A DNA stretch of 50,834 nt from Singulisphaera sp. (lineage in GTDB: Bacteria; Planctomycetota; Planctomycetia; Isosphaerales; Isosphaeraceae): positions 1-50,834 of the forward strand of contig DAIDJG010000127.1 of the NCBI GenBank assembly GCA_027451445.1, written 5' to 3'. The notes below the pieces were generated by a model. The model searched no databases and had not been told where the DNA came from. It saw nothing but the letters and a program-made list of their open reading frames with translations. The number at the start of each line of letters is the position of its first letter. Position 1 is the stretch's first letter. Shown here in pieces: positions 24,029 through 41,659 of the stretch. The position numbers and the translations under genes were made by a program.

Positions 24029-25168
24029 TCAGGGTGCCGGGAGCGCAAGGACCGCTCCCGCCCTTCCCAAAAGGCCGACTTGAGCGTCGTTCGCGAGGTT
24101 CGGCATCCTCCAAATCCCGTAGAAACCGATAAGCGACAGAAGAACCATCACGCCGACGGACGTTGGGGCCAAGGCCATGAACACCGCGGACACGACGACG
24201 ATCGCGGCCGTCAGGAGCACCAACTTCCCCTTCGAGTTGCGGCTCAGGGCACCGTGATCTTCCCACTCCTGGAGCATCGGACCGAAGAAGGCCGTGCGGC
24301 GGAACCAGGCGTCTAACGAAGGGGAGGAACGGGCCAGGTAGTAACCCGTGGCGAGAAGAAATGGGAAGGTGGGAATGCCGGGCAGGATCAGTCCGACGAT
24401 CGTCAGGACGAAGGCCCCGCCCGCGAGTGCCGTGTATTTCCAGCGTCGCCAGCCGGTCGCAAACAGGGCAGGAACCTCTGTCTTCGGATCGGCGAGACCC
24501 AAGGCACAGTCGGCCCCTTGCAAACCGCCGGCTTTCAGCTCCCCGAGGATCCGTTCGACCCGATCCAGAGTGCAGCCGTCCCACGGGTCATTGGTCGCGT
24601 CGCACACGATGGTGATCCGGTGCGACCAGAATGACACGCGACACTGTTCGACGCCTTCGAGGGCCAACACGCGCTCGGCCAGTTCCCCGTAGAGCGACCG
24701 GTCGCTGGAGCGGCCGCGATGGAGCAGGCGCGTTTGCCCCTCGTCGTCGACGTAGGTCTCCCACAAGGAAACGTCGCCGAAGGACCGGAACGCCGTCAGG
24801 GTCGTCCACCCCGCGCTTCGCGTCCACCACCACGGACGGCCGGCGCGTGTCGAGGCGCTGCGCACCGCGTTGACGAACACCTCGGCCATGAACGCCGTCG
24901 TGTTCGAGGCGAGGTCGAAGTCGACCCGGCAAGTGGACGTGACGAGGTCGACCTCCGCCTTCCGGACTCCGGGATTCTCACAGAGCGCTTCGAGAAGCCG
25001 CTGCGCGTACACCCGCCGATCGGCCCGAAACAGCCGCGCGTCGTTCACCCGGATGTGCCCAGCCTGGTCGTCGAGCTCGATATCCAGGCATGAGTCCGAC
25101 TCGTTGGGAGCGGACTCCAGGCTGGCGGCCAGGGGAAGGAACGGCATCGGGGGGCGATCGAGTTCCAT
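24029..25168 (-). CDS. DUF454 (YbaN-like) inner-membrane protein with N-terminal HMA-like tandem domains
   Basis: A 379-residue fusion. Residues about 25-100 (GHIRVNDARLFRADRRVYAQ, then AEVDLVTSTCRVDFDLA) and about 130-215 (QTRLLHRGRSSDRSLYGELA, then VEQCRVSFWSHRITIVCD) look like two ferredoxin-fold units. They correspond in order and motif to the N-terminal pair of the P-type ATPase and pseudo-ATPase in the same cluster. The C-terminal part is DUF454: GLILPGIPTFPFLLATGYYL, the RSSPSLDAWF loop, and two further helices. E. coli YbaN is about 125 residues, so the N-terminal module is an addition. AAAGGAAGG precedes the ATG. It is the last gene of the minus-strand cluster. Role is unknown; recruitment to the ATPase complex is inferred. 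Confidence 0.85.
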   Translation of the reverse strand: MELDRPPMPFLPLAASLESAPNESDSCLDIELDDQAGHIRVNDARLFRADRRVYAQRLLEALCENPGVRKAEVDLVTSTCRVDFDLASNTTAFMAEVFVNAVRSASTRAGRPWWWTRSAGWTTLTAFRSFGDVSLWETYVDDEGQTRLLHRGRSSDRSLYGELAERVLALEGVEQCRVSFWSHRITIVCDATNDPWDGCTLDRVERILGELKAGGLQGADCALGLADPKTEVPALFATGWRRWKYTALAGGAFVLTIVGLILPGIPTFPFLLATGYYLARSSPSLDAWFRRTAFFGPMLQEWEDHGALSRNSKGKLVLLTAAIVVVSAVFMALAPTSVGVMVLLSLIGFYGIWRMPNLANDAQVGLLGRAGAVLALPAP

Positions 25169-25194
25169 GAGGGCCTTCCTTTGACGGCGGATCG

Positions 25195-25551
25195 TCAGGC
25201 CGGAGCGAGCGCAGGGGTCGCCGCGTCAGGCGAGGATTCGCTACCTTCGGGGTAGAGCTCGTCCACTTTCCGCCAAGCGGCATGAGAGCCCTCGACCAGA
25301 CCGCGGACCGCCGCGTTGTTCACAGGAATGGAGCGGGCGAGGAATACCGTCGGGAAGACAACGCCGTAAGAGACCGTGTAACAGGTTGTGTAGATAAACC
25401 GGCTCATGAACCGGCCGGCCGCCGTCCAGGTTCGAGCCGCCGCCTCGCGCGCGTCCGCCGCGCCGTCCTGCGCGGCCTTCGTGACGAGTTCCAGGGTTCC
25501 GTTCGCCGAGGGAATGGGGTCGTGGCTTGAGTTCGCTTGGACGTCGGACAT
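25195..25551 (-). CDS. YGVVFP-motif small protein, paralogue 1 (118 aa)
   Basis: Starting at MSDVQANSSHD. After a helical, Ala-rich region (KAAQDGAADAREAAARTW) comes the core RFIYTTCYTVSYGVVFP, then FLARSIPVNNAAVRGLVEG. The core matches the protein encoded at 35666-35998 at 29 of 52 aligned positions. The motif segment is mildly hydrophobic and might associate with the membrane. Phasin-like helical composition was considered, but no family can be named. The stop lies 26 bp upstream of the DUF454 gene start, so the two are probably co-transcribed. The longer frame to 25596 has no better ribosome site. Confidence 0.8.
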   Translation of the reverse strand: MSDVQANSSHDPIPSANGTLELVTKAAQDGAADAREAAARTWTAAGRFMSRFIYTTCYTVSYGVVFPTVFLARSIPVNNAAVRGLVEGSHAAWRKVDELYPEGSESSPDAATPALAPA

Positions 25552-25723
25552 GCGAGTTGGCCCCGTGAAAAGAAGGTCCGGATCGCGACAACACACATGC
25601 TAACTCTACCTAATTTACCGAGACGGAGCATGGTGTCTTACAGGAATTGACCGTGGCGAGTTGCTGTTTCTTACGATCCGGAACCGATTGGAGACGTCAG
25701 AACGCCTCAAAACATGCCACGTT

Positions 25724-26713
25724 TTATTCGCGCTCGAGCTGGTCCGGCCCGAGATCGAGCACCTGGGCGCGGTACGACGCCGGGGTCGTTTTCATAAAGC
25801 GGCGGAACACAGTAGTCAGGTGGCTCTGCGAGGAGTAACCCACGGCAAGGGCCACGTTCACAATGGGAATCTGGGGGTTGGCCAGCAACTCGCAGGCCTT
25901 GGCCACGCGTTTTTCCGTCAGGAAACGATGGGGCGTCTTTCCCGTGGCTTTCTTGAAGGCGCTCAGGAAATAGTTCGGACTCAGGCCCGCGAGGTCGGCG
26001 AGATCGATCAGGGAGATTTCGGAGGCAAGCAGAGCGTCGAGATAGTCGATCACGCGCTGAAGACGAACATCAGAGAGCCGTTCTTCGGACTCCTTGTGGT
26101 CGCGAGGTAGCGACGAGAAGTTCCAGAGAAGCTGGATCGCGAGCTGCGTCCAGAGGGTCTCCGCGTAGAGATCGTTGCCCGTGCGAGGTGCGCGAAGTAG
26201 GGCGGCGAGGGACTGGCCCAGGGCAACGACCTCGGGCGTGGTCTGGTGATAGACGGGGGCAATCTCGATCGTCCTGCCATAGTGCTTCCACTCTCGGTCG
26301 GCAAGACCACGAAGCTGGTCGACCCCGAACACCAGGTTCAGCGTTTGGAGAGGCCGGTCCATGCCGAACGTGTTGTCCTCGCCTGCGGGAACGATCGTGA
26401 ATGCCCCAGGCGAGCCGACGAACCGCGACAGACGCCCGCCGCGCTTCCATTCGATGCGCGCGTTTCCCTTGAGGCCGAAGACCAGGGTGGTCGCGGGCGA
26501 GCGGTGCAGATAAACGTCGGGCAACTGCCCTTCGAGGATGACGGCGTGTCCGACCGCGCCGAGTGCTCGGGACGTCGAAGCCACGATCGGCATGCTTTCC
26601 GGCCAGGGCGGCGGCGTGGGGCCGTCGGGGAGGCCGGGCCGCGCGGGGGCGATCCGCATGTCGTGGTGCGCTCCAACAAAGACTTCGCGCGGGGAGATGT
26701 TACTCAGCCGCAT
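25724..26713 (-). CDS. AraC-family transcriptional regulator
   Basis: A regulator with a cupin-like N-terminal half (HAVILEGQLPDVYLHRSP, GSPGAFTIVPAGEDNTFGM) and a C-terminal AraC/XylS DNA-binding domain of two helix-turn-helix units: LIDLADLAGLSPNYFLSAFK, then TGKTPHRFLTEKRV, and IVNVALAVGYSSQSHLTTVF with FRRFMKTTPASYR. The best starts are ATG at 26713 (MRLSNISPRE) or 26658 (MRIAPARPGL); the longer open frame is Arg-rich and overlaps the upstream EcsC gene. It is the only transcription factor in the minus-strand cluster and separates EcsC from the second YGVVFP gene with gaps of about 155 and 172 bp. It is likely to control some of these neighbours, but no operator was found. Confidence 0.92.
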   Translation of the reverse strand: MRLSNISPREVFVGAHHDMRIAPARPGLPDGPTPPPWPESMPIVASTSRALGAVGHAVILEGQLPDVYLHRSPATTLVFGLKGNARIEWKRGGRLSRFVGSPGAFTIVPAGEDNTFGMDRPLQTLNLVFGVDQLRGLADREWKHYGRTIEIAPVYHQTTPEVVALGQSLAALLRAPRTGNDLYAETLWTQLAIQLLWNFSSLPRDHKESEERLSDVRLQRVIDYLDALLASEISLIDLADLAGLSPNYFLSAFKKATGKTPHRFLTEKRVAKACELLANPQIPIVNVALAVGYSSQSHLTTVFRRFMKTTPASYRAQVLDLGPDQLERE

Positions 26714-26868
26714 CGTGCGGTCAATGCAATTCCGTTGCCGAAGCCCACCACGTCGGCATTCGTATTCGCGGATGGGACCCGGGGCCAAATTGTGCTCTCG
26801 GACCGGATTGATTATGGCAGAGCCCGTCCATCGGATGCAAGACGCGCGGCCGGCGACCGGGGTCGCGT

Positions 26869-27900
26869 TTAACCGGTGGACACAGGCGCCGATCCCAGCG
26901 CACCGAGCGTCTCGCCCGTTTCGCTCCAGCCGGCCCGGAACTCCTCGACGGAGCGCATGGCATCCCGAGCACCATCGCGCGCACCCCGCCTCGCCGCACT
27001 GGGCAGCACGCCCGCCGCAAGGCCGACGGCTGCGATCGGCAAGACGACACCGAAGCCGATCCCGAAGCTGGCGAGGTACATGGTCTGGCCGGCGATTTCG
27101 CGCAGGTTCCGGACGGCTTCGTCGCGGGGATGCGCCGGAACGGCGGCGATTTCGCCTTCGATGCGTCCGTTGTCTTTCAGCCAACGCTCCTGGAAGACCA
27201 TCCGGGCGGTCCGGTCTACGCGTTTCATCATGGTGTAGTCGAGAATGATTGCCACTGGATCGCCGACAATCGGCACGGCTTCGAGCGCGAGATCGGACGC
27301 GACGCCCTCCTCGACGGCATCGAGACCGATCGGCGGCTCCGCATTGCCCACCTGACCCTGGTCCATTCGTGCCAGGCGCCGGCGGATGGACTGGCGGCGG
27401 GCGGGTTCATTCACACAGGCGAGCTCGAGCACGCCCAGCAGGTAATGCCGGCCCGCCTGCGCTGCGATGCAGTAGCCGTAACAGAGCGCTGTACGGTGAA
27501 TCGAGCGGAGCGCGGCGGTGAGGAACAAGGGGATCCCGGCAAGCTCTGTGGGGAGACCACCCACGCCCGCCGCGGCGCCCAGGCCGAGCGCCATTCGCTC
27601 AGCCCGCACACCGCCGCGCAGGGCCAACCGATCGCATTCTTGAAGAGGCGCGCGCTGGAGGTCTTCGACCCTGGTGACTCCCGCTTCCTTGAGAAACTCC
27701 GGAACCTGCCGGTCGGTGTCGAGCGCGGCCTCCAGGCTGTCGAGCGCTTTTCGGAGCGTGCTCTCGGGGATCAGGTGTTCGCCGAGACGGCCGAGCGGCC
27801 GGCGGACCCAGTCCATGGTTCGCGAGGCCCAGCCGAGCTCTTCACCCTTCCACGAGGCGATCGCCTCCAACTGGAGACGTTCGTAGTCGGTCAGGGGCAT
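26869..27900 (-). CDS. EcsC-family protein
   Basis: A 343-residue protein matching the EcsC domain: MPLTDYERLQLEAIASWKGE at the N-terminus, the GLGAAAGVGGLPTELAGIPL segment, LTAALRSIHRTALCYGYCIA, then a C-terminal hydrophobic region (GIGFGVVLPIAAVGLAAGVL) that may insert into or associate with the membrane. EcsC was first described beside an ABC transporter in Bacillus, but the biochemical role of the family is unknown. AGGAG eight bases before the ATG supports the start, and the PGPGW-like gene ends 25 bp upstream, so the genes are probably one transcript. Within this cluster it is likely to act at the envelope together with the neighbouring membrane proteins. Confidence 0.88.
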   Translation of the reverse strand: MPLTDYERLQLEAIASWKGEELGWASRTMDWVRRPLGRLGEHLIPESTLRKALDSLEAALDTDRQVPEFLKEAGVTRVEDLQRAPLQECDRLALRGGVRAERMALGLGAAAGVGGLPTELAGIPLFLTAALRSIHRTALCYGYCIAAQAGRHYLLGVLELACVNEPARRQSIRRRLARMDQGQVGNAEPPIGLDAVEEGVASDLALEAVPIVGDPVAIILDYTMMKRVDRTARMVFQERWLKDNGRIEGEIAAVPAHPRDEAVRNLREIAGQTMYLASFGIGFGVVLPIAAVGLAAGVLPSAARRGARDGARDAMRSVEEFRAGWSETGETLGALGSAPVSTG

Positions 27901-27924
27901 GAGCTGACTCCTCGCGCAAGAGAT

Positions 27925-28275
27925 TCATTCGGCCGTGCGGTCACAATTCTCGAGCGGGTAACGGCGTTCGAGGTCATCGATGAACCGGGTCACCTGACGC
28001 ATGCTTCCGTGATAGAACTTCGGGCAGCGCCGTTCGACGTAGGCTTGAACGCCTCGAAACGCGCGGGGCCAGAGGATCACGCCCCCCACGATCAGGAACG
28101 GTGAGCCGACGGGTCCGGGAAGCAAGAGTCCGCCGATCCCCGCGACGACGAGAAGCACGCCGACCTCTTTCGGCATCTTTTCGATCCGCCGGACCTGGTC
28201 GTCTTGACTCACGGGCTCGGGCTGGGGTGCGGGCTCGGGCTCGGCGTGCTTTTTCTTGACTCTTCTCTTGGCCAT
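27925..28275 (-). CDS. PGPGW-like small membrane protein, paralogue 1 (116 aa)
   Basis: After a basic and Pro/Glu-rich N-terminus (MAKRRVKKKHAEPEPAPQPE) there is a helical hairpin in the membrane: EVGVLLVVAGIGGLLLPGPV, a turn at GSP, then FLIVGGVILWPRAF. The turn LLPGPVGSP resembles the LPGPGW signature of the putative transmembrane PGPGW family. The C-terminal helix (SMRQVTRFIDDLERRYP) is amphipathic. The next gene upstream encodes a close paralogue. GGAGG lies ten bases before the ATG. Function is unknown. The LPG turn also occurs in the DUF454 protein of the same cluster, which suggests related hairpin architectures. Confidence 0.82.
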   Translation of the reverse strand: MAKRRVKKKHAEPEPAPQPEPVSQDDQVRRIEKMPKEVGVLLVVAGIGGLLLPGPVGSPFLIVGGVILWPRAFRGVQAYVERRCPKFYHGSMRQVTRFIDDLERRYPLENCDRTAE

Positions 28276-28312
28276 GGGGGCTTCCCTCCGAAATCATCTT
28301 CACCAGCCGGTC

Positions 28313-28771
28313 TTAGCCCTGAGTGGCGTCTGGAAAGCGCCGTTCGAAGTCGTCGAGATAGCGGCCGACCTGCTTCATCCCCTTATTATAGGCAGAAGGG
28401 TATCGGCGCTGGGCCCAGCGTTCGAGCTTTCCGAACATGTTCGGCCACAGGATCAGGCCTCCCGCCACGAGCGCCGGCGTGCCGGCCATGCCGGGCAGGA
28501 CCCAGCCCAGGGCACCGACGGTCACGAGCATGACACCCACTTCCCTGGGAAGCTCCTGGAGCTTGCGGTGATTCGCGTCCGCGGGGAAAGCGCTCACTTC
28601 GTCGCTCGCGGGATCTCCGGGTGAGTCGCTCGCGGCACCCGCCGAGGAGGCGCGAGCCTCGGGCTCGTTTGTTCCGCTGTCGCTCATGAGGGGACATGTG
28701 TCCTCACCTGGTGGCGGCAAGACGCCGACCACCCCATCCGCGCTGGATTCGTCCATGCTCCGATCTTCCAT
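28313..28771 (-). CDS. PGPGW-like small membrane protein, paralogue 2 (152 aa)
   Basis: An acidic, Ser/Ala/Pro-rich N-terminus of about 70 residues precedes the same membrane hairpin as the neighbouring paralogue: REVGVMLVTVGALGWVLPGM, then GTPALVAGGLILWPNMF, and a C-terminal helix GMKQVGRYLDDFERRFP. The long N-terminal region differs from the basic one in the paralogue, so the two may have opposite charge partners. AAGGAG nine bases before the ATG at 28771 supports this start. The gap to the pseudo-ATPase stop is 15 bp, indicating the same operon. No enzymatic motif is seen. Confidence 0.82.
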   Translation of the reverse strand: MEDRSMDESSADGVVGVLPPPGEDTCPLMSDSGTNEPEARASSAGAASDSPGDPASDEVSAFPADANHRKLQELPREVGVMLVTVGALGWVLPGMAGTPALVAGGLILWPNMFGKLERWAQRRYPSAYNKGMKQVGRYLDDFERRFPDATQG

Positions 28772-28786
28772 CGGGTCGATTCTCCT

Positions 28787-31192
28787 TTAGACTCCGAGCG
28801 AGTGGGAAACCAGTCGCCGCGGCACTCGACTGCGGCCCGGCGCAGCGAGCGAGCCCGAAGCTCGCCGATAAAGCTCCAGCGTGCTCAGATTACTGATCAC
28901 GACAACCGCGAGCGCCGTGGCCCCGAGGAGGAACGCGCCCGCGACGCAGAGCGCGTTCGGTACGAGCACGAGTCTCTGCGCCGCTTCGACCCGGAGCGTG
29001 TGCGAGCGCGCGACGTCGCACAGCTCGGCGAACAGGTCAAGCCGGGGCTGGAGCAAGATCACCTCGGCCGGATCGTCGTCCCAGTCGGCCTCGCTCGAGG
29101 TCGATACGGCGACGGTTGCGACTTCAGCGACTTCACGTCGCGCGCGACAGTCGCCGATAAACGCCGTCCGCGCCCCGCGCTCTCGGCACTCGCGGAGATA
29201 GCGTTGCTTATCGGACGTAGCGAGACCCGCGCCAAAACGCGTCACTCCAAGCCGTGACGCTAGCCCTGCGACTTCGCTTTCGGGTCGGTCCGAAAGCAGG
29301 ACGACCGAGACTCCCGGCTGTGCCTGCAAACGTTCCACCACGCTCGCAGCCTTGAGCCGTTTCGAGCGCCCAAACTCCAGGACCGCCACCAGATCGCCGT
29401 CGACCTCAACCGCCAACGGGCCGGAGCTTCCACCCTCCGGATCGAGTTCACGGACCCGGACCCGGTGCTTGCCGTGCTCGATCGTAACTCCCGGATCAAA
29501 TTCCACCGCCGGGAGGTTCAGCACGTGGCAATGGCGTTCGCGACACGCGTCGAGCAACGCCTCCGCCCGCTCGTCGGCCATGTGGCGGAAGGCGCTGGCC
29601 GCATAGCGGAGCAGGAGCGGCTCCGGGAGCCGCGACTGAACGTCGACGACCTCCAGAGCGCACGAGCGCAGGGCAGGGGAGTCATCGAGTACGACGGTGT
29701 CGACCTTCGCCAGGCGGTTGAAGGAATCCGGAAACCGTACGACGATCCCAAGCCGAGCGCAAGCGGTCGCGTCGCGCAAGGTTTCCAACGAGAGAGCAAC
29801 ACCGGGACCAGTCGCATAGTCGGGACGGAGCACTGCCGACGCCATCGTGATGTCGCCGGCGAGCAATCCCACACCGGCCATCGCAAACGTCGGGACGACC
29901 GCCTGCTCGGCAAACACCTCGGTCTGCTTCACCGGCGATCCCGCCCCGGGTGCGAGGTTAGTCGCCGCGACGAGGGCCCGGCCGATCTTCCCCGCCGTCG
30001 TCGCGTCGGCTGACCGCGCAACCTGAACGCACAGTGACCCTTTCAGCACAGTCGAGCCGGCGAGGACCGTGTCCCCCTTCCGCACCCGCGACGCCCCCTC
30101 CAGCGCCCGCAGTGCCTGTTGCTCGACCATCCCCTCACCCCGGATCACCCGGCCATCCGCCGGCACCAGATCACCCGCGCTCACGACGATCAGGTCGCCC
30201 GGCCTGAGTCGGTCAACCGGGGCAAGCACCTCGCCTTCGGCCACCTCGACGCGCGCCAGCCGCGGCAACGGCAGGCACTCGGCCAGCAACCGCCGGCGCT
30301 CGGCGGAAAGGTCGTGGCGCAGCCGGGCGTTCCAGAACCGGAACGACCACATCATCAAGGCGGATGCGAGGAACTGTCCGCCCGTCAGAGTCCCCGCGAC
30401 GATCACCGTGTAGAGCACCGGCAGTCCGACCGTGCGCTGGCGAACCTGTTGCCACGCCAGCCGGAACGTCCGCAGGTTGCTGCCGACGAGCATGATCGCG
30501 CTGACGGGCGCGAGTGCGGAGACGAGCAAATCGGCCGCCGCACCCACGACCAGGTTCGCATTCGCGAGCGCGAACGAGGTCTTGGGAGGCGGCGGGACAG
30601 CACGTTCCCACCAACCGGGGTTGTCGAGCGCCTCTTCAGCCAGCCGAATCAGCCGCGAACTCGAGACCGTCGACGGGGTGTAGCGGACGGTCAAGGCCCC
30701 AGTGCGGCGGTCGAGCGCCGTGCGATTCACGCCCGGTACGGACGCCATGAGCTTGTGGAACTCTCGGGCCAGAATCGCGTCCTGGCGCAACGAACCGTGG
30801 CGGAGCCGCAACAGACCGGGTTGGTCAATGACGACTTCGCACGTCGAGAGCAGAGCGCCATGCCGGTAGACGGTGAACGTCGACTCGCGCACACCGCGCG
30901 GTAGGGTCGGCGAAAGTCCGTCGTCCGACCGGAGCGCCGCCGCAAGGGTCCTGATGAATGCCTGCGGGTCCGGCGGCGTGTGTACCGGCCGAACGAGGGC
31001 CAGGGCCGCAGCCCGATCGATCGAGACGGACGCGACCTCGGCAAGGTAAAACGCGCGTTCGAGAAAGCGCCGGGTGTGTCCGTCGGCGCCGAGTCCAAGC
31101 AGAGACTCGTTCTGCACCTCAAGCACGCCTCCGGACCACGCCACCCGGGCGGGCTTGGGCTCGGATCGGGGGGTGGAGGGAGGCGGGTTCAC
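28787..31192 (-). CDS. P-type ATPase homologue lacking catalytic motifs (pseudo-ATPase)
   Basis: About 801 residues from a GTG at 31192; an ATG at 31255 is in frame but lies inside a repeat. The overall order is that of a heavy-metal P-type ATPase: two HMA-like N-terminal units (HTRRFLERAFYLAEVASVSI; QPGLLRLRHGSLRQDAILAR), membrane helices, actuator (PGDLIVVSAGDLVPADGRVI), P/N domains and two last helices. The signatures are all altered. TGES is replaced around ALEGAS, the membrane CPC by TGPGVALSL, DKTGT by DDSPA (Asp503 kept), HP is absent, and GDGxND reads GDCRARRE (680-687). A continuous 2.4-kb frame argues against decay. It probably no longer pumps; a regulatory or scaffold partner of the intact ATPase upstream is inferred. 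Confidence 0.88.
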   Translation of the reverse strand: MNPPPSTPRSEPKPARVAWSGGVLEVQNESLLGLGADGHTRRFLERAFYLAEVASVSIDRAAALALVRPVHTPPDPQAFIRTLAAALRSDDGLSPTLPRGVRESTFTVYRHGALLSTCEVVIDQPGLLRLRHGSLRQDAILAREFHKLMASVPGVNRTALDRRTGALTVRYTPSTVSSSRLIRLAEEALDNPGWWERAVPPPPKTSFALANANLVVGAAADLLVSALAPVSAIMLVGSNLRTFRLAWQQVRQRTVGLPVLYTVIVAGTLTGGQFLASALMMWSFRFWNARLRHDLSAERRRLLAECLPLPRLARVEVAEGEVLAPVDRLRPGDLIVVSAGDLVPADGRVIRGEGMVEQQALRALEGASRVRKGDTVLAGSTVLKGSLCVQVARSADATTAGKIGRALVAATNLAPGAGSPVKQTEVFAEQAVVPTFAMAGVGLLAGDITMASAVLRPDYATGPGVALSLETLRDATACARLGIVVRFPDSFNRLAKVDTVVLDDSPALRSCALEVVDVQSRLPEPLLLRYAASAFRHMADERAEALLDACRERHCHVLNLPAVEFDPGVTIEHGKHRVRVRELDPEGGSSGPLAVEVDGDLVAVLEFGRSKRLKAASVVERLQAQPGVSVVLLSDRPESEVAGLASRLGVTRFGAGLATSDKQRYLRECRERGARTAFIGDCRARREVAEVATVAVSTSSEADWDDDPAEVILLQPRLDLFAELCDVARSHTLRVEAAQRLVLVPNALCVAGAFLLGATALAVVVISNLSTLELYRRASGSLAAPGRSRVPRRLVSHSLGV

Positions 31193-31206
31193 GGGAAGGG
31201 ATCTCT

Positions 31207-31378
31207 CAAGATGGATGCAAAATGTCAGATGCGAAATGGCAGATGCGAGATGCAAAATGGTGGGTGCAAGATGGCAGACGGCGACTCTCGGCGTGTGGCC
31301 AGAGACGGTGATGCAGACCGCAGTCCGTCCTCATCGAGCATCTGGCATCTGCCATTTTGCATCGGACATCCGCCATTC
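31207..31378. repeat. Degenerate GATGCAAAATGGCA-type repeats in inverted arrangement
   Basis: From 31207 to about 31275 there are several imperfect units of the form GATGCRARATGGCA. At about 31338-31376 the reverse complement of the same units recurs. The block separates the 64-residue gene from the pseudo-ATPase and may form a long hairpin. It looks like an intergenic repeat that has expanded by slippage. An ATG of the pseudo-ATPase frame (31255) falls in it, which makes that start doubtful. Confidence 0.7.
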
Positions 31379-31390
31379 CCCAGTTCCCGT

Positions 31391-31585
31391 CTACCCCGCC
31401 GCATACGGCTTGAGCTCGCCTCGACTCACCATGCCTTCGAGGGCGTCGGCGATGAGGCTTTCCTCTTTGTCAAACACGTTGAAAACCTCGCGCAGGCGGC
31501 CGCGCTGGCGAGTCAGCTCGAAGCCGAAGTAGGTCACCACCAGCAATCCCACGATCGCCGGGATGATCGGGACTTCTTCGTTCAT
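31391..31585 (-). CDS. Small single-pass membrane protein (64 aa)
   Basis: MNEEVPIIPAIVGLLVVTYF gives an N-terminal membrane helix, followed by a charged helical region (QRGRLREVFNVFDKEESLIA) and a short end. GGAG is about ten bases before the ATG. It lies 32 bp after the stop of the upstream gene, so it is part of the same minus-strand transcript. Small helices of this sort often stabilise membrane complexes such as P-type ATPases, but there is no family signature here to establish it. Confidence 0.7.
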   Translation of the reverse strand: MNEEVPIIPAIVGLLVVTYFGFELTRQRGRLREVFNVFDKEESLIADALEGMVSRGELKPYAAG

Positions 31586-31617
31586 GGCGCTTCGTCTCCG
31601 TTCCCAGGTGAATGATG

Positions 31618-32145
31618 TCAGAGCAATTCGATCGACGCCTCGGAGGCTTCGTGCAACAGCCGGATCGCTCCCGAGACGCCTTCGCGATGGAGTTCCTTCT
31701 TAACCTCGACGTCGAGGCACTCGGCCGTGCGGTGCAGGTTCACAAAGCGAAGGAACTCCTGGAGCCTCGCGAGCGCTTGTTCGCCATTACGGAATCGTCC
31801 GAGGTGAATGCGGAATCCCTTGTACTTGCCGTGGCCGATGCCTTTGGGAGCGTGCAAGTCGTAGATCAGGATGGTGGGATCGCGGCCAATCAACTGGGGC
31901 TCGCGGCGGAGAATCTCCACCGACTGCTCGGCGCTCAGGATGTAGAGCGAATCTTGCTTGTTGAAGCTGTGGAGGATTGGTAGGTGGGCCTGGACCAACT
32001 TGGAAACGTGTGCGTTCCAGCCGGTATCGATCAGAAAGATGTCAAACCGCTTCAACTCCGGCGAAATGCACTCGGTTACCTTTTGGGCGCGCAGGCTCAT
32101 GAAGGGAATGTGAGCCGAGGGGGCTTTCCGCGCTTTGCCGGTCAT
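31618..32145 (-). CDS. Hypothetical protein (175 aa) in the P-type ATPase cluster
   Basis: Starts at MTGKARKAPSAHIPFMSLRA with GAGGG about eleven bases upstream. It is a soluble alpha/beta protein: CISPELKRFDIFLIDTGWN, LPILHSFNKQDSLYILSAEQ, DPTILIYDLHAPKGIGHGKY, and a helical C-terminus ending SEASIELL. A flavodoxin- or thioredoxin-like fold is conceivable from the strand/helix alternation, but no catalytic Cys pair is present. No known family is recognised. It is followed closely by the 64-residue membrane gene and preceded by the 103-residue gene (34-bp gap), so it is part of the cluster operon. Confidence 0.75.
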   Translation of the reverse strand: MTGKARKAPSAHIPFMSLRAQKVTECISPELKRFDIFLIDTGWNAHVSKLVQAHLPILHSFNKQDSLYILSAEQSVEILRREPQLIGRDPTILIYDLHAPKGIGHGKYKGFRIHLGRFRNGEQALARLQEFLRFVNLHRTAECLDVEVKKELHREGVSGAIRLLHEASEASIELL

Positions 32146-32179
32146 GACAGGTCGCCCTCTGGATGCGGGACAACAGGGA

Positions 32180-32491
32180 TCAGAGCCCCAGGTCGGTCGC
32201 GATCGAGTCGATGAACCGGACGGCGTGCTGTCGGTGCACATCGGTCGCAAACGCCTTCGCCGCCCAGGAAAGTTCGGCATCCACCTGGAGCGCTTCGGCA
32301 GTAAACCGCACAACGAACGACGCCCAGTCGGCCTGAATCGTAAACTGCGGCTTCTCCGGATGCCAGGTCAGCGCGGTGCGTACTGGAATCTCATGCTGTC
32401 GCCGCGAGAACTCGTTGGTGATCGCTTCCCGCGTCGGCGCGTCGAGCGGCCGTTGGAGCGGGCGCGTGTACAGGGTTTCTTTCCATCGCAT
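32180..32491 (-). CDS. Small conserved-looking protein overlapping the ATPase 3-prime end (103 aa)
   Basis: The ATG at 32491 lies inside the ATPase gene, giving a 101-base overlap in a different frame. The protein has a helix (APTREAITNEFSRRQHEIPV), two or three strands (ALTWHPEKPQFTIQADWASF; RFTAEALQVDAELSWAAK) and a final helix (FIDSIATDLGL). This pattern resembles the polyhydroxyalkanoic-acid-system family (PHA_gran_rgn), but the match is only by feel. No in-frame start downstream of the overlap would keep the first helix. GGAG lies about 13 bases upstream, a weak site, so coupling to ATPase translation is likely. Confidence 0.65.
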   Translation of the reverse strand: MRWKETLYTRPLQRPLDAPTREAITNEFSRRQHEIPVRTALTWHPEKPQFTIQADWASFVVRFTAEALQVDAELSWAAKAFATDVHRQHAVRFIDSIATDLGL

Positions 32492-35150
32492 AAGCTTGAC
32501 TCATCTCCAGCCGGTGCCGGCGTTCCGCCTCGATTTGCGCGACTTTGCGGAGTGGAAGCACGCCGTTCGCCAGGGCGGCCAGAGCGGCGACGTTGTTGGT
32601 GACCACCGACGCCATGATCCCAAAGCCCATCGTAAATACGCCCACGATGCACGCAATGTTCGGCGCCAGGATCATCGACCAGCTTCGCTTGACGTTCAAA
32701 TCCAGATCGCGGGCGATGTCCCTGAGCTCGCAGAGCTTCGCCAGCCCCTCCTCCAGGAACACAATGTGGGCCGTGTCGGTCGCGATCGACGACGCCCCCC
32801 GCAATGAGATCGATACGTTGGCCTTCTTGAGTGCGATCGAATCGTTGATCCCATCGCCCACGAAGCAGACCTTGCATCCCTCCTTTTGCAGTTTCTCCAC
32901 GTAGTCGGCCTTGTCCGCCGGCAGCACCTGGGCGAAGTAACGGTCCATGCCAAGCGACTCCGCCAGCTTCTTCGTCGGCGCCTCGTGGTCACCCGAGATG
33001 ATCGCGATGTGCTTGATCCCCCGCTTCCGCAGGCCAGCGATGATGTCCTTCACCTCGGGTCGAACGGAGGCCTGAAGCTCGATCGCGCCGCCGAGCTCGT
33101 CGTCGACGCCGACCATGACCATCGTGAACCCTTCGCGGTGTGCCTCGTCGAGGGCTTCCACCACCTCGGGCGTGAGCTCAATCCCCTCCATCTCCATGAA
33201 CCGCTTGCTGCCCACCCGTATGGTGCGGCCCTCGATCTCGACCGTGATCCCGTAGCCGACCTTGTACTGGGTATCGTCCGTTTCGGGCAGCTCGAGGTTC
33301 AGGTCTTTCGCCTTGTGCAGGATCGCCAACGCAATGGGATGGTGGAACTTGCGCTCGGCAGCCGCGGCGTAACCGAGGATCTCGTCGGGGTCGAACCCCT
33401 CCGATGCAATCACCCGCCCGACCTCCGGACGCTCACGGGTCAGGGTGCCCGTCTTGTCGAAGAGGACGGTGTCGATCTCGTTCATCAGCTCCAGGGCGCG
33501 GCCGTCCTTGACGAGGATCCCCTTGTTCGCGCACAGGGCCAGTGAGCTCAGCATCGCCAACGGGGCGGCCATCCGAATGCCCGTGCCGAAGTCGCTGTTG
33601 AGCACCGCCACGGCGCCCGCAGGGCCCATCGCGGCCAGGCCGAGCGAGCCGACGCACAGAGTCGGGATCACGGCCTTATCGGCGAGCCGCTCTCCCTTGT
33701 GCTGCGACGCCAGCTTGTAGCCAGCCGTGTCGTTGAGGATCTGGCTGATCTTGGCGGACGCAGTTTCCGTTCCCGAAGTTTCGACCGAGACGTACACCTT
33801 ACCCGCAACCATAACGGTCGACGCAAACACCCGGTCGCCCACGCCCTTCTCCGCGGGCGTCGACTCACCGGTCAGGGCGTGCTGATCGATCATCGCCATG
33901 CCTTCGACCACGTGTCCGTCGACAGGGACGACCTCGCCGGTGTTCACGACGATGATGTCGCCCTTGTTGAGCTTGTCGAGCGAGACCTGCACCTCGGTGC
34001 CGTTCCGATACAGCCAGACGTATCGCGGCTGCTTGCCGAACGCGTTGAGGAGAAGCTTCTTCGAGTTGTCCTGCGTGCGCTTGACCAGCACCCGGCCGAA
34101 GCTGAGGCACCAGCAAAGCACGGTCCCCGGGAAGATCGACATGGTCCCAAGACAGCCCACGACCACGATCGCGTCGAGCACGTCGACCCCGAGCCGCTTC
34201 TCCTCGAACAGGACGTGCCGCGCTTCACGGAAAGTCGGTATCGACGTGTAGGCGAACAACAACGCGGCCGCCGGCAATAGCCCGGGCATCGCAAACTGTG
34301 CGGCCGCCGCGAAGGGAACCGACGCGGTGCAGAGGGGCAAATGCAGGTCGAGCTTATCGAGCTTGGTCGGGTGCTCGGCGTTCGCGAGGGCGCTGTCGAG
34401 GATCTCGATCACCTGGTCGCGCGACAACTGCCGAGGGTCGTAGTCGACCTGGACGTTGCATGTGATCGAGCCGGTCTTGTACTGCTCGATCCCGAGGATG
34501 CTCATCAGCTCCCGCTCGATCGCCTGGCAGAGCTCGCTCTTGCGGTAGAGGACGGGATTCTTCAAACGGATCCGTCCTGGGCGGTCGAGTTTGACCTCCC
34601 AGCCCGCGTGCGCCGCAACCGGACGAGAATACCGCACGACCCCGTCGCGGCTCCGCGCCTCGGACACGTCGGCCAGTGACGACTTCGCCGGACTGGCCTG
34701 GGGCGCGTGGGGAACCGCCCGGCCATTGCCGTTTGGACTGGCATGACCATTTGTTGCGTGTCCGTTCGCATGGCCATGGGTCACATGCCCGTTCGTCGCG
34801 TGTCCGTTCGCGTGGCCATGGGTCGCATGACCGTTGGCTGCATGACCGTTCGTCGCGTGACCGTTCACATGCCCGTTCGCGGTGTGACCGCTGGTCTCTG
34901 GCGCGAGTCTAAGCAGGGAGGCGACCCGGTTCAACACGCCCTGGAGCGTCCATTTCTTCGGGCAGTAGCGGAGCTCCGCGTGGGGCGAATCACCCCTGCG
35001 AATGATGATGTCGGAGATTTCTTCCGCGAGGAACGCGCGCTCGACGAACCGCCGGCAGGTTGCGCTGTCGGCATCGCCGAAAAGGACCCGGCTGGAAAGT
35101 CGAATGATCCCTCGATCCGGAAACGTGACGGCCAGATCTTGGCTGCTCAT
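32391..35150 (-). CDS. P1B-like P-type ATPase with His-rich linker and no CPC motif
   Basis: A 919-residue cation-transporting ATPase. Layout: first HMA-like unit (residues 5-65, TCRRFVERAFLAEEISDIII); a His-rich repeat (about 87-138); second HMA-like unit (about 184-260, PGRIRLKNPVLYRKSELCQA); membrane helices; actuator with TGES at 427-430; helices containing GTGIRMAAPL where CPC is expected; DKTGT with phosphorylated Asp565; the HP pair in ERKFHHPIA; GDGIND at 765-770; and two last helices. The machinery is intact, but the CPx metal site is absent, so the transported ion cannot be predicted and may not be Cu, Zn or Cd. The start overlaps the upstream 40-codon frame by one base (TGATG), and its end overlaps the next gene by 101 bases. 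It is the likely central enzyme of this cluster. Confidence 0.95.
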   Translation of the reverse strand: MSSQDLAVTFPDRGIIRLSSRVLFGDADSATCRRFVERAFLAEEISDIIIRRGDSPHAELRYCPKKWTLQGVLNRVASLLRLAPETSGHTANGHVNGHATNGHAANGHATHGHANGHATNGHVTHGHANGHATNGHASPNGNGRAVPHAPQASPAKSSLADVSEARSRDGVVRYSRPVAAHAGWEVKLDRPGRIRLKNPVLYRKSELCQAIERELMSILGIEQYKTGSITCNVQVDYDPRQLSRDQVIEILDSALANAEHPTKLDKLDLHLPLCTASVPFAAAAQFAMPGLLPAAALLFAYTSIPTFREARHVLFEEKRLGVDVLDAIVVVGCLGTMSIFPGTVLCWCLSFGRVLVKRTQDNSKKLLLNAFGKQPRYVWLYRNGTEVQVSLDKLNKGDIIVVNTGEVVPVDGHVVEGMAMIDQHALTGESTPAEKGVGDRVFASTVMVAGKVYVSVETSGTETASAKISQILNDTAGYKLASQHKGERLADKAVIPTLCVGSLGLAAMGPAGAVAVLNSDFGTGIRMAAPLAMLSSLALCANKGILVKDGRALELMNEIDTVLFDKTGTLTRERPEVGRVIASEGFDPDEILGYAAAAERKFHHPIALAILHKAKDLNLELPETDDTQYKVGYGITVEIEGRTIRVGSKRFMEMEGIELTPEVVEALDEAHREGFTMVMVGVDDELGGAIELQASVRPEVKDIIAGLRKRGIKHIAIISGDHEAPTKKLAESLGMDRYFAQVLPADKADYVEKLQKEGCKVCFVGDGINDSIALKKANVSISLRGASSIATDTAHIVFLEEGLAKLCELRDIARDLDLNVKRSWSMILAPNIACIVGVFTMGFGIMASVVTNNVAALAALANGVLPLRKVAQIEAERRHRLEMSQAYAMERNPVHAPAPTAARRADAGSDHQRVLAATA
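34737..34892 (-). repeat. Tandem 12-15-bp repeats encoding the His-rich NGHAT linker
   Basis: Within the ATPase gene, about eleven units of the form x-Gly-His-(Ala/Val/Thr)-x-(Asn) follow each other, mostly NGHAT or HGHA. They encode thirteen His residues between the two HMA-like units. The DNA units are imperfect copies of 12 or 15 bases and probably vary in number between strains. His-rich stretches of this kind bind Zn, Ni, Co or Cu in other transporters. Confidence 0.9.
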
Positions 35151-35272
35151 CAGAAGCGACCTCGGTGGATTCTTGGAAGCATGAATTCAAGGTGCGTGAT
35201 GGAGAGGTCGAGCGTCTCGGTTTCCCAACGGAGAGGGGGGTTCGCCGCGGGCAGTTTTTTCGATTCAGACAT
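35150..35272 (-). CDS. Tiny ORF (40 aa) coupled to the P-type ATPase start
   Basis: A 40-codon frame (MSESKKLPAANPPLRWETET, then a basic end) whose start overlaps the end of the 90-residue gene by 8 bases and whose stop overlaps the ATPase ATG as TGATG. No ribosome site precedes it, so it would depend on re-initiation. It might be a translated coupling leader and not a functional peptide. It could also be a chance frame, though both overlaps being in phase with the neighbouring signals makes this less likely. Confidence 0.5.
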   Translation of the reverse strand: MSESKKLPAANPPLRWETETLDLSITHLEFMLPRIHRGRF

Positions 35273-35537
35273 GTGCAGGCGAATATGTACCAGCACCATT
35301 TCGCGCCGGTGGTTCCCAGGAAGGCTGTGAAGCCGCCTCAGGCGTCGGCGCGGCGGCCTCAGCCGCCATGTTCTGTGCGGCGGTCTGAGCGTCATGAAAC
35401 GCCGCTGCGGCCCCTTCCATGAGGGCCGAGACCAGCGGGGCTACCTTGTGTTTCCACTTCGGGTACGTCGCGAGCGCAAACGCCCCAACGGCGACACCGG
35501 CCGTGAAGGAAACCACACTCGGTCGCAGTAACGGCAT
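35265..35537 (-). CDS. Single-helix small protein upstream of the ATPase (90 aa)
   Basis: MPLLRPSVVSFTAGVAVGAF gives one N-terminal membrane helix with Gly/Ala spacing. A short KWKHK basic patch and a helical Ala-rich tail (GAAAAFHDAQTAAQNMAAEA) follow, then a Pro/Ser/His end. AAGGTGAT nine bases before the ATG supports the start at 35537. The general build (one helix then an amphipathic Ala-rich helix, next to a P-type ATPase) recalls the DUF1490/PacL and DUF5132 type accessory proteins of mycobacterial and cyanobacterial metal ATPases. This is an analogy by architecture, not a demonstrated match. Confidence 0.75.
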   Translation of the reverse strand: MPLLRPSVVSFTAGVAVGAFALATYPKWKHKVAPLVSALMEGAAAAFHDAQTAAQNMAAEAAAPTPEAASQPSWEPPARNGAGTYSPAHV

Positions 35538-35665
35538 GGCGATCACCTTCCGTTGGAGAGCGAGAGGAACTCGTAACCGAATCGGCAAGCACGCTTGAGC
35601 CGCTTACAGAGCGCCCCGGGGCCCATCCCAACCCTCGACCCGTGGACGACCGCTCCCATGCCCGT

Positions 35666-35998
35666 TCAGGGGGTAATGATCGTCGGCGGCTTGGGCTTGA
35701 TCTCATCGACCAAATCCATCGCGGCGCGTGCCCCATCGATAAACCCGTGGACGGCAGCGTTTTCCTTGGGGACCGCGCGGGCAACGAACGCCGCCGGAAA
35801 GACCACCCCGTAAGAAACCGCGTAACATGCGTTGTACGTCAGCCGCGAGAGGAAACTGCCAACGGCCGGCAACGCTTCCGATGCAGACGACCGGACCTCC
35901 TCGAGCCCCCCCTTGGCCGCCTGAGCCGCAGCGTCCAGGGCATCGGCGACCGACTTCAAGGGGTCGTCACTCACGCTGTTCACCGCTTCGTTCGACAT
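35666..35998 (-). CDS. YGVVFP-motif small protein, paralogue 2 (110 aa)
   Basis: Starting at MSNEAVNSVSDDP with GGGAG eight bases upstream. After a helical N-terminus (VADALDAAAQAAKGGLEEVR) comes the core RLTYNACYAVSYGVVFP, then FVARAVPKENAAVHGFIDG, and a Pro/Lys end. It is a clear paralogue of the protein at 25195-25551 and is the first gene of the minus-strand cluster, separated by about 128 bp from the 90-residue gene. A promoter for the cluster is therefore expected upstream of 35998, but I cannot point to a box. Function unknown. Confidence 0.8.
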   Translation of the reverse strand: MSNEAVNSVSDDPLKSVADALDAAAQAAKGGLEEVRSSASEALPAVGSFLSRLTYNACYAVSYGVVFPAAFVARAVPKENAAVHGFIDGARAAMDLVDEIKPKPPTIITP

Positions 35999-36236
35999 GT
36001 AATCGGCTCCCCGAATACGAGAGTCCAACTTTCTCGGTATTCTGAAAATGATACCCTATTTTACCCACTTTGCTTTCAAGGAATTCTCCCAGCCGGTTTC
36101 GAATTCTACCGCAAGCAAGGATCGGGCCGGTTTTGGGGGTTGGTGGGGTTCGTCGTTATGGCGGCTCGGGAGGGCGCAAACCGTGAACCAAGACGCGAAC
36201 GTTGATGGCAAGATGCACCTCCGCTAGGATTTTGGT

Positions 36237-38362: not shown

Positions 38363-41300
38363 TTAATCAACGAACATAAACTCGTTCGTCAACAAGAGCA
38401 CCTGCGCATACTCTTCCCAGGGCGAGAGCAATCCCGCCGAAGGACCGTGGAAGTCTTCCTGGGAGTGCCAGGAGGTGGCGAGTGAACCGCTCTCACGCAA
38501 TGTGGGCGACCAGGTGAACGAATCGAAGCCATCGCCCGAACGACAGTCGACAGTAAAGTCGATCGTGTCCCCTCGGTGCACCTCGATCGCATCGACGTGA
38601 GTCGCGACCTTGGCGTTGTGAGCAACCCAGGTCCCGAGAACTCCCGTGCGGCTCGACACGATTTGGCCGTGGACGCCGTCGCCGCGGCTTTCGGAGTGTG
38701 CGAGCGTGCCGTCGATCGTGATGACGCCATCGTGCTGCGCCGTCCAGCGCCGGACGGCCGCGTGGTTCGCGTCTCCGCCCGTGTGGCCGCCCACCGCGCT
38801 CAAGTGGAGGTAGCCCCCTTTCGGATCGGGCAGCTTGGGCCCAAATTGCCAGGCGGTTCCGCTCCAGTGAGGTAGGGCTTCAAAATGGACCACCCGTTGG
38901 GTTGACTCGTCGACCTGCCCAACGCCGTACTGCCAGACCGCCGTTGGCGCTTTGGACTCGCTCTGTTGGCGAATGAAGCCGAGGGCCATGCTGCGCTCGT
39001 GAGCGGTGGGTGTGCGGCTGAAGAGTCGCGTGTACAGCGCATCGACTCGCGCCTCGGGGCTTTCGTTGTGCGACTGACACCACGCCGCGAGGGCGCGGGC
39101 CTGTTCGATCACGAACGGACTGTTCAACAGGAACAGAGCCTGCTGCGGAACCACCGTGACGAACCGCTGCGGGCTCGTCGCGTCGGGGCTCGCGAAGTCG
39201 AACGTGCGGTACATGCTGTCGAGGTTTTGCCGGTCGATGAAGCCGTAGACGGTCCTACGCGCCGAAAACGGTGCCTCGGTGATCGAAACTGGACGGCCGC
39301 CGAGCGTGCGGTCCAGCCGCCCCGATGCGGCCAAAAGCGAGTCGCGCATCTCTTCGAAGTCCAGCCGTTGCCGGTTGAACTTCCAGAGCCAGCGGACTTG
39401 CGGGTCGCGCTCGGCGTAGGCGGGATTGTTCTCCCCCTTCTGCTGGTAAACGCTGGAGAGCATGATCCGCCGATGCAGCGCCTTGATTGACCACCCCCCG
39501 CGCAGGAATTCCGTTGCGAGGAAATCAAGCAAATCGGGGTGGGAGGGAGGATCGCAGCGCAGGCCGAAGTCGCTCGGGCTCGTGACCAGGCCCTGGCCGA
39601 AGTGGCGGAGCCAGACGCGGTTGACCAAGACGCGCGCCGTCAAAGGGTTGTCCGGCCTTACGATCGCCTGCGCCAGTTCCAGACGGCCGCTCCCGTTCTG
39701 GAACGGCTGCCGATTGACGCCGGAAAGAAGTTTGAGGAATTGGCGCGGGACCGGTTTGCCTGGCCGGCCGGGGTTGCCGCGGATGAAGACGTGCGGCTCG
39801 ACCGGCTGCGGGCGGTCGTTCAGCACCATCGCCCGGGGGGGTGCTGCGGGGTGGGTGGCCTGCACCTCCTCGATTTTTTTCGAGAGCTCCTGCAAGCGGT
39901 TCCGCTCGTTCCGTTCCAGCCAGCGAGAGCGAGCGTCGCTGGCGAACGCGAGCAGGCCGTCCGGTCCATGCAGGACCTGCCGGAGTGCCTCCCATTCCGG
40001 TTCGGGAAGCGCATTGGCCTTGGATTTCGCGGCCTCACGCCAGCGTGTCTCGACCTGCCCAAACAAGGCCCCGTAACGCGCGGCGACTTCGCTCAAGCTC
40101 GCCAGCGGCGTTTCGGTGAGCGCCTTGACCACGAGCGGATTGGCCGACTTGGACACAGCGATCCCTGCCGAGACACTCACGGCCTTCTGGCTGAACTCAA
40201 TCGCGGGCAACGCGCTGAAGGCGTGCCACGGCCCAAAAACCGGATCGTCCTTCTTCCCCGTCGCGCGGGTTCGCCAGCGTTCCATCACGAAGCGCAAACG
40301 GCCGGACATCAACTTGTCCTTCTGGACGCGCTCGTCAAACTTCGCATTGCGGGAGTTGAACTCCAGGTCAACCGCGGCACGGAGATAAGCGTCGAACCGC
40401 CCGCTCACGTCCGACTCGGCCTCGGCGACTCGGCGCGCGAGATAGTCATCGCGCTCCTTCCGCTTGGCGGCCACCGCTGCCTCAAAGGCGACTGCGTCCG
40501 GGTTCGTTGCGGAGACCGGGATCAGCGGCAGCTCATTGGGCTCGACCGACGAAGCGAAGACGCCGAAGAGCGAGTAATAGTCGTCGGTCGGGATCGGGTC
40601 GTATTTGTGGTCGTGACAACGCGCACACGCCACAGTCAGTCCCAGCAAGCCGCGCGTCACCACGTCGATCCGGTCGTCGATGATGTCTTCGTTGTTGTTG
40701 AGAAATCGCCGGCCGACGGTCAGGAATCCCAGGGCGGTCAACGTGTGAGTGTCACTCGCGGTGGGGAGCCGATCGGCGGCGATCTGTTCGAGGAGGAACT
40801 GATCGTAAGGCTTGTCATCGTTGAAGGCGCGGATGACATAGTCGCGGTATGTGTACGAGTACGGATAGCGCCGTTCCTGGTTGAAGACGTAACCCTTCGT
40901 GTCCGCATAGCGTGCCACGTCGAGCCAGTGCCGTCCCCAGCGCTCGCCGTAGCGGGGCGAGGCGAGGAGCCGGTCGACGACTTTCGCGAAGGCGTCGGAC
41001 GCACTGTCGGACTCGAACGCCGCAACCTCTTCCGGCGTAGGCGGCAGCCCCGTCAGGTCAAACGTCGCGCGGCGGATCAAGGTCCGGCGGTCCGCCTGCG
41101 GGGCAGGGGACATCCCCTGCTCCTTGAGCTTGGCGAGGACGAACGCATCAATAGGCGACTGACCCCAGGCCGAGCCCTCATTCTTGGGCGGGACGACGTC
41201 CTTGATCGGCTGAAACGCCCAGTGTACGGGCGCGGCCTTGGCCTGGTCGGTCGCGGAAAGGCTGGGGGCCTTCGACCACGGTGCCCCCATCTTGACCCAG

Positions 41301-41659
41301 GTCGCAAGCGCCTCGACGGCCGCATCGGGGAGCTTCGTCTTGGGCGGCATCTTGATATCGCTGTGCACGTACCGCACAGCCTGAATGAGCAGGCTCTTGT
41401 CCGGGTCGCCGAGGACGATCGCCGGGCCGTTGTCGCCCCCTTCGAGCAGAGCAGCGCGGGAGTCGAGACGGAGGCCCGAGGACTGCTTCTTCTGGCCATG
41501 ACAGCGCAGGCACGACTCGGCCAGCACCGGCCGGACTTGCTTTTCGAAGAACTCAATCCCGTTCGGCTCTTCGGCCCAAGCGCGGGGGCTCGTAAGTCCG
41601 AGCCACGCGGCGGTGAGCGGGAGTGCCAACCAAATCAGCCAGTATTTCGATTGGGTCAT
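38363..41659 (-). CDS. PSCyt1 - DUF1549 - DUF1553 secreted cytochrome protein (1098 aa)
   Basis: A planctomycete-specific exported protein. A signal peptide (LIWLALPLTAAWLGL, cut after AWA) precedes a c-type haem site CLRCHG (Cys50, Cys53, His54) in the PSCyt1 domain. DUF1549 follows with AFVLAKLKEQGMSPAPQADR and RYGERWGRHWLDVARYADT, then DUF1553 with the segments NPLTARVLVNRVWLRHFGQG and FEEMRDSLLAASGRLDRTLG. About 150 extra C-terminal residues look beta-rich (GGYLHLSAVGGHTGGDANHA). The domain set is often linked to sulfatase or carbohydrate breakdown loci, usually next to a DUF1501 gene. No DUF1501 gene is present on either side here. Function remains unknown; haem-dependent redox chemistry is inferred. 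Confidence 0.94.
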   Translation of the reverse strand: MTQSKYWLIWLALPLTAAWLGLTSPRAWAEEPNGIEFFEKQVRPVLAESCLRCHGQKKQSSGLRLDSRAALLEGGDNGPAIVLGDPDKSLLIQAVRYVHSDIKMPPKTKLPDAAVEALATWVKMGAPWSKAPSLSATDQAKAAPVHWAFQPIKDVVPPKNEGSAWGQSPIDAFVLAKLKEQGMSPAPQADRRTLIRRATFDLTGLPPTPEEVAAFESDSASDAFAKVVDRLLASPRYGERWGRHWLDVARYADTKGYVFNQERRYPYSYTYRDYVIRAFNDDKPYDQFLLEQIAADRLPTASDTHTLTALGFLTVGRRFLNNNEDIIDDRIDVVTRGLLGLTVACARCHDHKYDPIPTDDYYSLFGVFASSVEPNELPLIPVSATNPDAVAFEAAVAAKRKERDDYLARRVAEAESDVSGRFDAYLRAAVDLEFNSRNAKFDERVQKDKLMSGRLRFVMERWRTRATGKKDDPVFGPWHAFSALPAIEFSQKAVSVSAGIAVSKSANPLVVKALTETPLASLSEVAARYGALFGQVETRWREAAKSKANALPEPEWEALRQVLHGPDGLLAFASDARSRWLERNERNRLQELSKKIEEVQATHPAAPPRAMVLNDRPQPVEPHVFIRGNPGRPGKPVPRQFLKLLSGVNRQPFQNGSGRLELAQAIVRPDNPLTARVLVNRVWLRHFGQGLVTSPSDFGLRCDPPSHPDLLDFLATEFLRGGWSIKALHRRIMLSSVYQQKGENNPAYAERDPQVRWLWKFNRQRLDFEEMRDSLLAASGRLDRTLGGRPVSITEAPFSARRTVYGFIDRQNLDSMYRTFDFASPDATSPQRFVTVVPQQALFLLNSPFVIEQARALAAWCQSHNESPEARVDALYTRLFSRTPTAHERSMALGFIRQQSESKAPTAVWQYGVGQVDESTQRVVHFEALPHWSGTAWQFGPKLPDPKGGYLHLSAVGGHTGGDANHAAVRRWTAQHDGVITIDGTLAHSESRGDGVHGQIVSSRTGVLGTWVAHNAKVATHVDAIEVHRGDTIDFTVDCRSGDGFDSFTWSPTLRESGSLATSWHSQEDFHGPSAGLLSPWEEYAQVLLLTNEFMFVD

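Follow-up and report, generated by a model that had tools for sequence, protein, structure and literature searches.

A P1B-fold ATPase with a cysteine-less M4 motif and a predicted catalytically dead companion in a Singulisphaera gene cluster

In P-type ATPases, helix M4 is normally unwound at the ion site. Plasma-membrane H+-ATPases use an Asp together with an Arg as internal counter-ion, and in SERCA, the P2A Ca2+-ATPase, the site is built from oxygen and amide ligands (Asp/Glu, Thr and Asn) contributed by M4, M5 and M6. The P1B pumps are regarded as a family of soft-metal exporters, the CPx members of which have CPCALGLATP in M4. A poorly characterised P1B6 family, with DYSCALK in M4 and HN in TM6, was described by Boudehen et al. 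(PMC9374683), and P1B6-type ATPases often adjoin DUF6110 proteins (PMC9374683). In the mycobacterial PacL-Ctp effluxosome (PacL1/CtpC), the pump is encoded together with a small protein that has one TM helix and an amphipathic tail (PMC9374683, PMC13043812). Here, these systems are compared with a gene cluster in a 50,834-nucleotide stretch of DNA from Singulisphaera sp. (the window; contig DAIDJG010000127.1).

The window encodes a 919-residue P-type ATPase of P1B-type fold, pump A (32,391–35,150, minus strand), at exactly the position given in an earlier sequence-only reading. That reading had described HP, DKTGT and GDGIND as intact, and the translation agrees: DKTGT lies at 565–569, HP at 604–605 (within HHPIA, 603–607) and GDGIND at 765–770, and TGES is likewise present at 427–430. 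With DKTGT, TGES, GDGxND and a three-domain cytosolic head, pump A belongs to the P-type ATPase superfamily, while its HP motif, eight membrane helices and score of 410.5 bits against TIGR01525 (heavy metal translocating P-type ATPase; cut-off 346.25) place it in P1B. The hallmarks of CPx-ATPases were missing, with no CPx, SPC or TPC in M4, as had been claimed, and no CxxC heavy-metal domain in residues 1–260. Helix M4 reads NSDFGTGIRMAAP, the counterpart of which in an alignment to A. fulgidus CopA is CPCAFGLATP, and VLNSDFGTGIRMAAP of pump A shares columns with VACPCAFGLATP in the same alignment. The M6 pattern is TNN...N. Two HMA-like domains are present at the N terminus, where the match to HMA_2 stayed below threshold (28.3 vs 30 bits, Pfam). 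A tandem repeat at 34,741–34,894, in the 5' part of the gene, gives rise to an NGHA/NGHV His-rich linker (residues ~86–140), the length and His content of which differ strongly among orthologues.

The AlphaFold2 model of pump A (mean pLDDT 82.3, pTM 0.69) displays a P-type head and eight membrane helices. A Foldseek search with the model returned the P1B pumps CopA and ATP7B at the top (7r0g, 4bbj), and VIA-align matched it to CoaT, HMA4, CopA and ZntA with Z of 28–33, the comparison with 7qbz giving Z 32.6 and an rmsd of 10.0 across 578 residues. A structural view of the membrane site, which the sequence-only reading had proposed as a check, revealed that M4 is interrupted at residues 519–521 (S519-D520-F521). 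A CPx motif in a helix that had been mis-assigned, the objection foreseen in that reading, was rejected: neither the alignment nor the model contains one, although conserved Cys residues lie in M1, M2 and M5.

The cysteine-less M4 motif is widespread. Among 21 planctomycete orthologues, picked on overall similarity and not on the motif, N518–P530 is invariant with the single exception of S519A, and a degenerate DNA pattern for DF[GA][TS]GIR matched at least 115 stretches, which among the matches listed came from Cyanobacteria, Planctomycetota, Myxococcota, Actinomycetota, Chloroflexota, Kiritimatiellota and Pseudomonadota. Of the 80 listed loci, 78 have a P-type ATPase reading frame that is open and includes DKTGT, the other two ending at a sequence edge. 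More divergent members have DLGTAIR (L078) or, on the Methylobacterium plasmid pMRAD05 (46% identity), DLGTGIR. The invariance in similarity-chosen orthologues, together with the recurrence across phyla, argues against a one-off loss, and the conservation of the motif excludes a sequencing or assembly artefact as its source. One match, from Methylococcaceae (L126), is 71% identical and may represent transfer or mis-binning. N831 and N853 are invariant in 35/35 rows of an alignment of diverse members (A1) and played no part in selecting its sequences, whereas the invariance of D520–P530 in that alignment is partly built in, as loci were selected by the motif pattern.

Phylogenetic placement, also proposed in the sequence-only reading, put the Cys-less M4 sequences in one clade (SH-aLRT 98) in a quick tree with SH-aLRT support only, from which the motif columns had been removed. 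The sister of this clade consists of DYSCALK pumps from a more distant planctomycete family (f45), Azospirillum and Vibrio (SH-aLRT of the union 96), and the joint group is separate from CopA-, CoaT- and other CPx-type pumps. The pump A group thus falls outside P1B6, as its sister (SH-aLRT 98, with six P1B6 sequences included), and pump A has Thr and NN in place of the DYSC-type Cys in M4 and the HN in M6; HN is retained by some actinobacterial members of the Cys-less clade. The picture of a lone CPx-less enzyme holds for the absence of CPx but not for the isolation, since the clade is widespread and its P1B6 sister is itself already without CPx. A plasmid-borne P-type ATPase of Priestia megaterium (pBM400, L106, 2,599–4,713), has DFICGIK in M4 and three flanking HMA2 proteins, and may be intermediate between P1B6 pumps and the Cys-less clade. 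No study of CPC-less P1B pumps was found in the open-access literature, a scope outside which most subscription papers fall, and this is weak evidence of novelty.

Just downstream of pump A lies a paralogue, companion B (28,787–31,255, minus strand; 822 residues, TTG start uncertain), on which the sequence-only reading was silent, as it was on the conserved Cys residues in M1, M2 and M5. B shares 27% identity with A over an alignment spanning most of B, and its structure model has the P1B fold. It is predicted to be catalytically dead: DKTGT is replaced by DDSPA, TGES by RALE and GDGIND by GDCRAR, and HP is gone. These losses recur throughout the B family; the acceptor Asp often survives, and some nucleotide or phosphate chemistry in B is therefore conceivable. 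RPDYATG in M4, PN in M5 and N in M6 are retained. B was found in 29 of the 30 A-bearing genomes of the order, the contig of the lone exception stopping ~0.9 kb past A, and in 0 of 15 genomes without A; in three genera (g6, g17 and g20), species have both genes or neither. Measured against the nearest relative, dN/dS was ~0.14 for A and ~0.26 for B. The dN of B was 0.16–0.21 in the membrane segments and 0.33 in the P-domain region, while A displayed the opposite pattern, with the P domain most constrained (dN 0.01). Over 30 residues at the former phosphorylation site of B, dN was also low (0.13) in the nearest-relative pair but not in the two other pairs. B is under purifying selection, which is stronger in the membrane part.

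The B sequences form a single clade that branches from inside planctomycete A. Cyanobacterial clusters contain further predicted-dead copies, some beside an active copy; these loci were partly selected by match to a dead query, and a frequency was not estimated. Forcing the planctomycete and cyanobacterial dead copies into one clade was rejected (lnL lower by 404, p-AU 2e-74), so that dead companions evolved at least twice. Both kinds mostly keep the M4 Asp, the M5 PN and the M6 N. On two cyanobacterial contigs (L250 and L255), two active Cys-less subtypes, DFGTGIR plus DFGYGIR or DFSHGIR, are clustered with one dead copy. Another class of dead A-like paralogues occurs in some Isosphaeraceae-type genomes (L067, L068, L069, L071 and L072); their M4 motifs include DFGTGLR and DLDTGPR, and in several of these genomes they lack an N domain. 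The open-access literature searched yielded no report of a dead P-type companion, again weak evidence of novelty.

Both genes belong to a cluster at 24,029–36,028, entirely on the minus strand, in the order smD, sm107, A, g31618, B, pgp2, pgp1, EcsC, AraC, smC and HMA-DUF454, and its smD–pgp1 core is found again in other members of the family. The first gene, smD (35,666–35,998 or 35,666–36,028), encodes a small conserved membrane protein of the YTTCY..SYGVVFP type, and the small membrane protein encoded by smC (25,195–25,596) resembles it; the two related genes bracket the cluster, are conserved across the family and have no Pfam match. The small protein sm107 (35,265–35,537), with the conserved start MPLLRPS, has one TM helix with GxxxG followed by an Ala-rich amphipathic tail, and had no match in Pfam, including PacL, DUF1490 and DUF6110, for three orthologues at E<=1 or for the window copy at E<=0.1. 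Between A and B, g31618 (31,618–32,313) encodes a conserved soluble protein of unassigned family. The syntenic small membrane proteins pgp2 (28,313–28,771) and pgp1 (27,925–28,275) resemble each other in sequence, and are followed by an EcsC-family protein (26,869–27,900), in place of which several relatives have a PF01699 gene after pgp1. An AraC-type regulator (25,724–27,184), whose ORF begins upstream of the true start, and an HMA + DUF454 membrane protein (24,029–25,168) at the end of the co-directional run complete the cluster. A large PSCyt-like cytochrome-type protein, typical of the phylum and recognised by eye only, adjoins the cluster at 38,363–41,659. PADLOC gave no defence-system match.

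From the sequence, we propose that the ion site of pump A is composed of D520 and T523 (M4), N831 (M5) and N852/N853/N862 (M6), with R526 possibly acting as internal counter-charge. Asp, Thr and Asn are ligands that hard cations would prefer, and no conserved Cys is left in the membrane core of the wider Cys-less clade. Nine of the 30 genomes having A carry a gene for a PF01699 Ca2+/H+-antiporter-like protein no more than 6 kb from A, compared to a rough chance expectation of ~0.1 (one to three copies per 4–11 Mb genome), the nine genomes being related and hence not independent. The gene occupies three different positions, either upstream of smD or next after pgp1 or g31618. A PF01699-type gene also adjoins several cyanobacterial members of the Cys-less clade, and one cyanobacterial cluster contains an Nramp gene and another an Mntp gene. 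No antiporter gene is found near pump A within the window, where EcsC comes after pgp1; the two PF01699 antiporter genes of this genome are on other contigs. The oxygen- and amide-rich ligand set and the linked PF01699 genes in two phyla suggest that the cargo is a hard divalent cation, Ca2+ or Mn2+. The sequence-only reading had left the transported ion open, which is correct in that no known motif gives the substrate, although the ligand set and the PF01699 linkage narrow down the cation.

A different explanation starts from the conserved Cys residues, and holds that planctomycete A still exports a transition metal (Zn2+, Cd2+ or Fe2+) through a relocated thiol site of C333 (M1), C346 and C348 (M2) and C834 (M5), to which the His-rich linker would deliver the metal. 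C333, C346 and C348 occur in 21/21 planctomycete orthologues and C834 in 20/21, and the A group of the wider set retains C333 in 14/14 members, Methylobacterium among them. These residues could bind soft metals, which counts against a hard cation, and the NGHA linker of the window protein, the HMA-type domains and the neighbouring DUF454/HMA protein are consistent with such a cargo. However, C346 and C348 are variable among distant A members, the linker is short and His-free in some orthologues (L052 and L063), and all four Cys residues are missing from the cyanobacterial and actinobacterial sister clade, which has the same M4 motif. Transition-metal export along this route appears rather unlikely to us.

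The M4 Asp/Arg pair might instead serve a non-metal cargo such as H+, K+, a polyamine or a lipid. The same pairing is found in plasma-membrane H+-ATPases, the wider clade is without a soft-metal ligand, and EcsC and other membrane proteins are neighbours, but the placement beside P1B6, the HMA_2-like domains and the Ca2+/H+-antiporter-like, Nramp and Mntp genes linked in relatives make this improbable. It is harder still to see A as a metal-responsive ATPase switch or sensor: an AraC regulator in the cluster and the unusual ion site are compatible with such a role, yet conservation extends to every catalytic motif, to the membrane domain with its eight helices and to the break in M4, and we give the idea very little weight indeed. 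For B, the loss of four catalytic motifs and a dN about three times that of A could reflect a decaying duplicate without a role. This would be hard to reconcile with a frame that stays open in long contigs, a dN/dS of ~0.26, a membrane signature that is kept, co-inheritance in 29/30 genomes and the independent cyanobacterial parallel, and is thus highly improbable.

The explanation that we tentatively favour, and consider quite possible, is that A is a P1B-fold pump that exports a divalent cation harder than Cu+ or Zn2+ and acts with the non-catalytic B. Beyond the fold, motifs, phylogeny, co-inheritance, selection and recurrence established here, we infer transport by A, the identity of its cation and an A–B complex. 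A would be an exporter working on the ordinary E1–E2 cycle, in whose clade the metal-binding Cys of M4 has been replaced by Thr. The cation, with Ca2+ or Mn2+ as first candidates, would be held by the M4 Asp and Thr and the Asn residues of M5 and M6, with R526 as probable built-in counter-charge. B would be a partner devoid of phosphoryl-transfer chemistry that has kept the membrane ion-site signature, and would probably shape the membrane assembly or sense the ion. More speculative, and on balance unlikely in full, is the general proposition of a heteromeric P-type ATPase, made up of a catalytic subunit and a dead paralogue, that arose on two or more occasions from a P1B chassis in which soft-metal cysteines gave way to oxygen ligands suited to a hard divalent cation. 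If true, the P1B scaffold has a widespread branch with a rebuilt ion site, and a pump and dead twin inherited almost obligately constitute a P-type ATPase organisation unreported in the open-access literature searched. If the reading of the ion site is right, 'heavy metal translocating ATPase' would be a misleading annotation for the Cys-less M4 clade.

Compared to described systems, pump A shares with the CPx-type P1B pumps CopA, ZntA and CoaT the fold, the DKTGT, TGES, HP and GDGIND motifs and the eight membrane helices, but has an Asp and an Arg in M4 instead of CPx and is without the N-terminal CxxC. The likeness to SERCA, which is of a different subfamily, is chemical only. With the PacL-Ctp effluxosome, the locus has in common the layout alone, a pump plus a small protein in which one TM helix with GxxxG precedes a charged or Ala-rich amphipathic helix; CtpC has CPC, sm107 lacks a DUF1490 match, and no dead paralogue is described for that system (PMC9374683, PMC13043812). 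Beside the cyanobacterial members, the small-protein part of this likeness is taken by DUF5132 genes, DUF5132-like proteins being present at 38 of 94 loci. P1B6 and the pump A clade are alike in the M4 layout of Asp, small residue and Lys or Arg, in the M5 Asn, in the second Asn of the M6 HN and in the HMA_2-type N-terminal domain; between the two, the M4 Cys is changed to Thr, the M4 Lys to Arg and, in most members, the M6 His to Asn, and pump A further differs from P1B6 in being accompanied by a dead companion.
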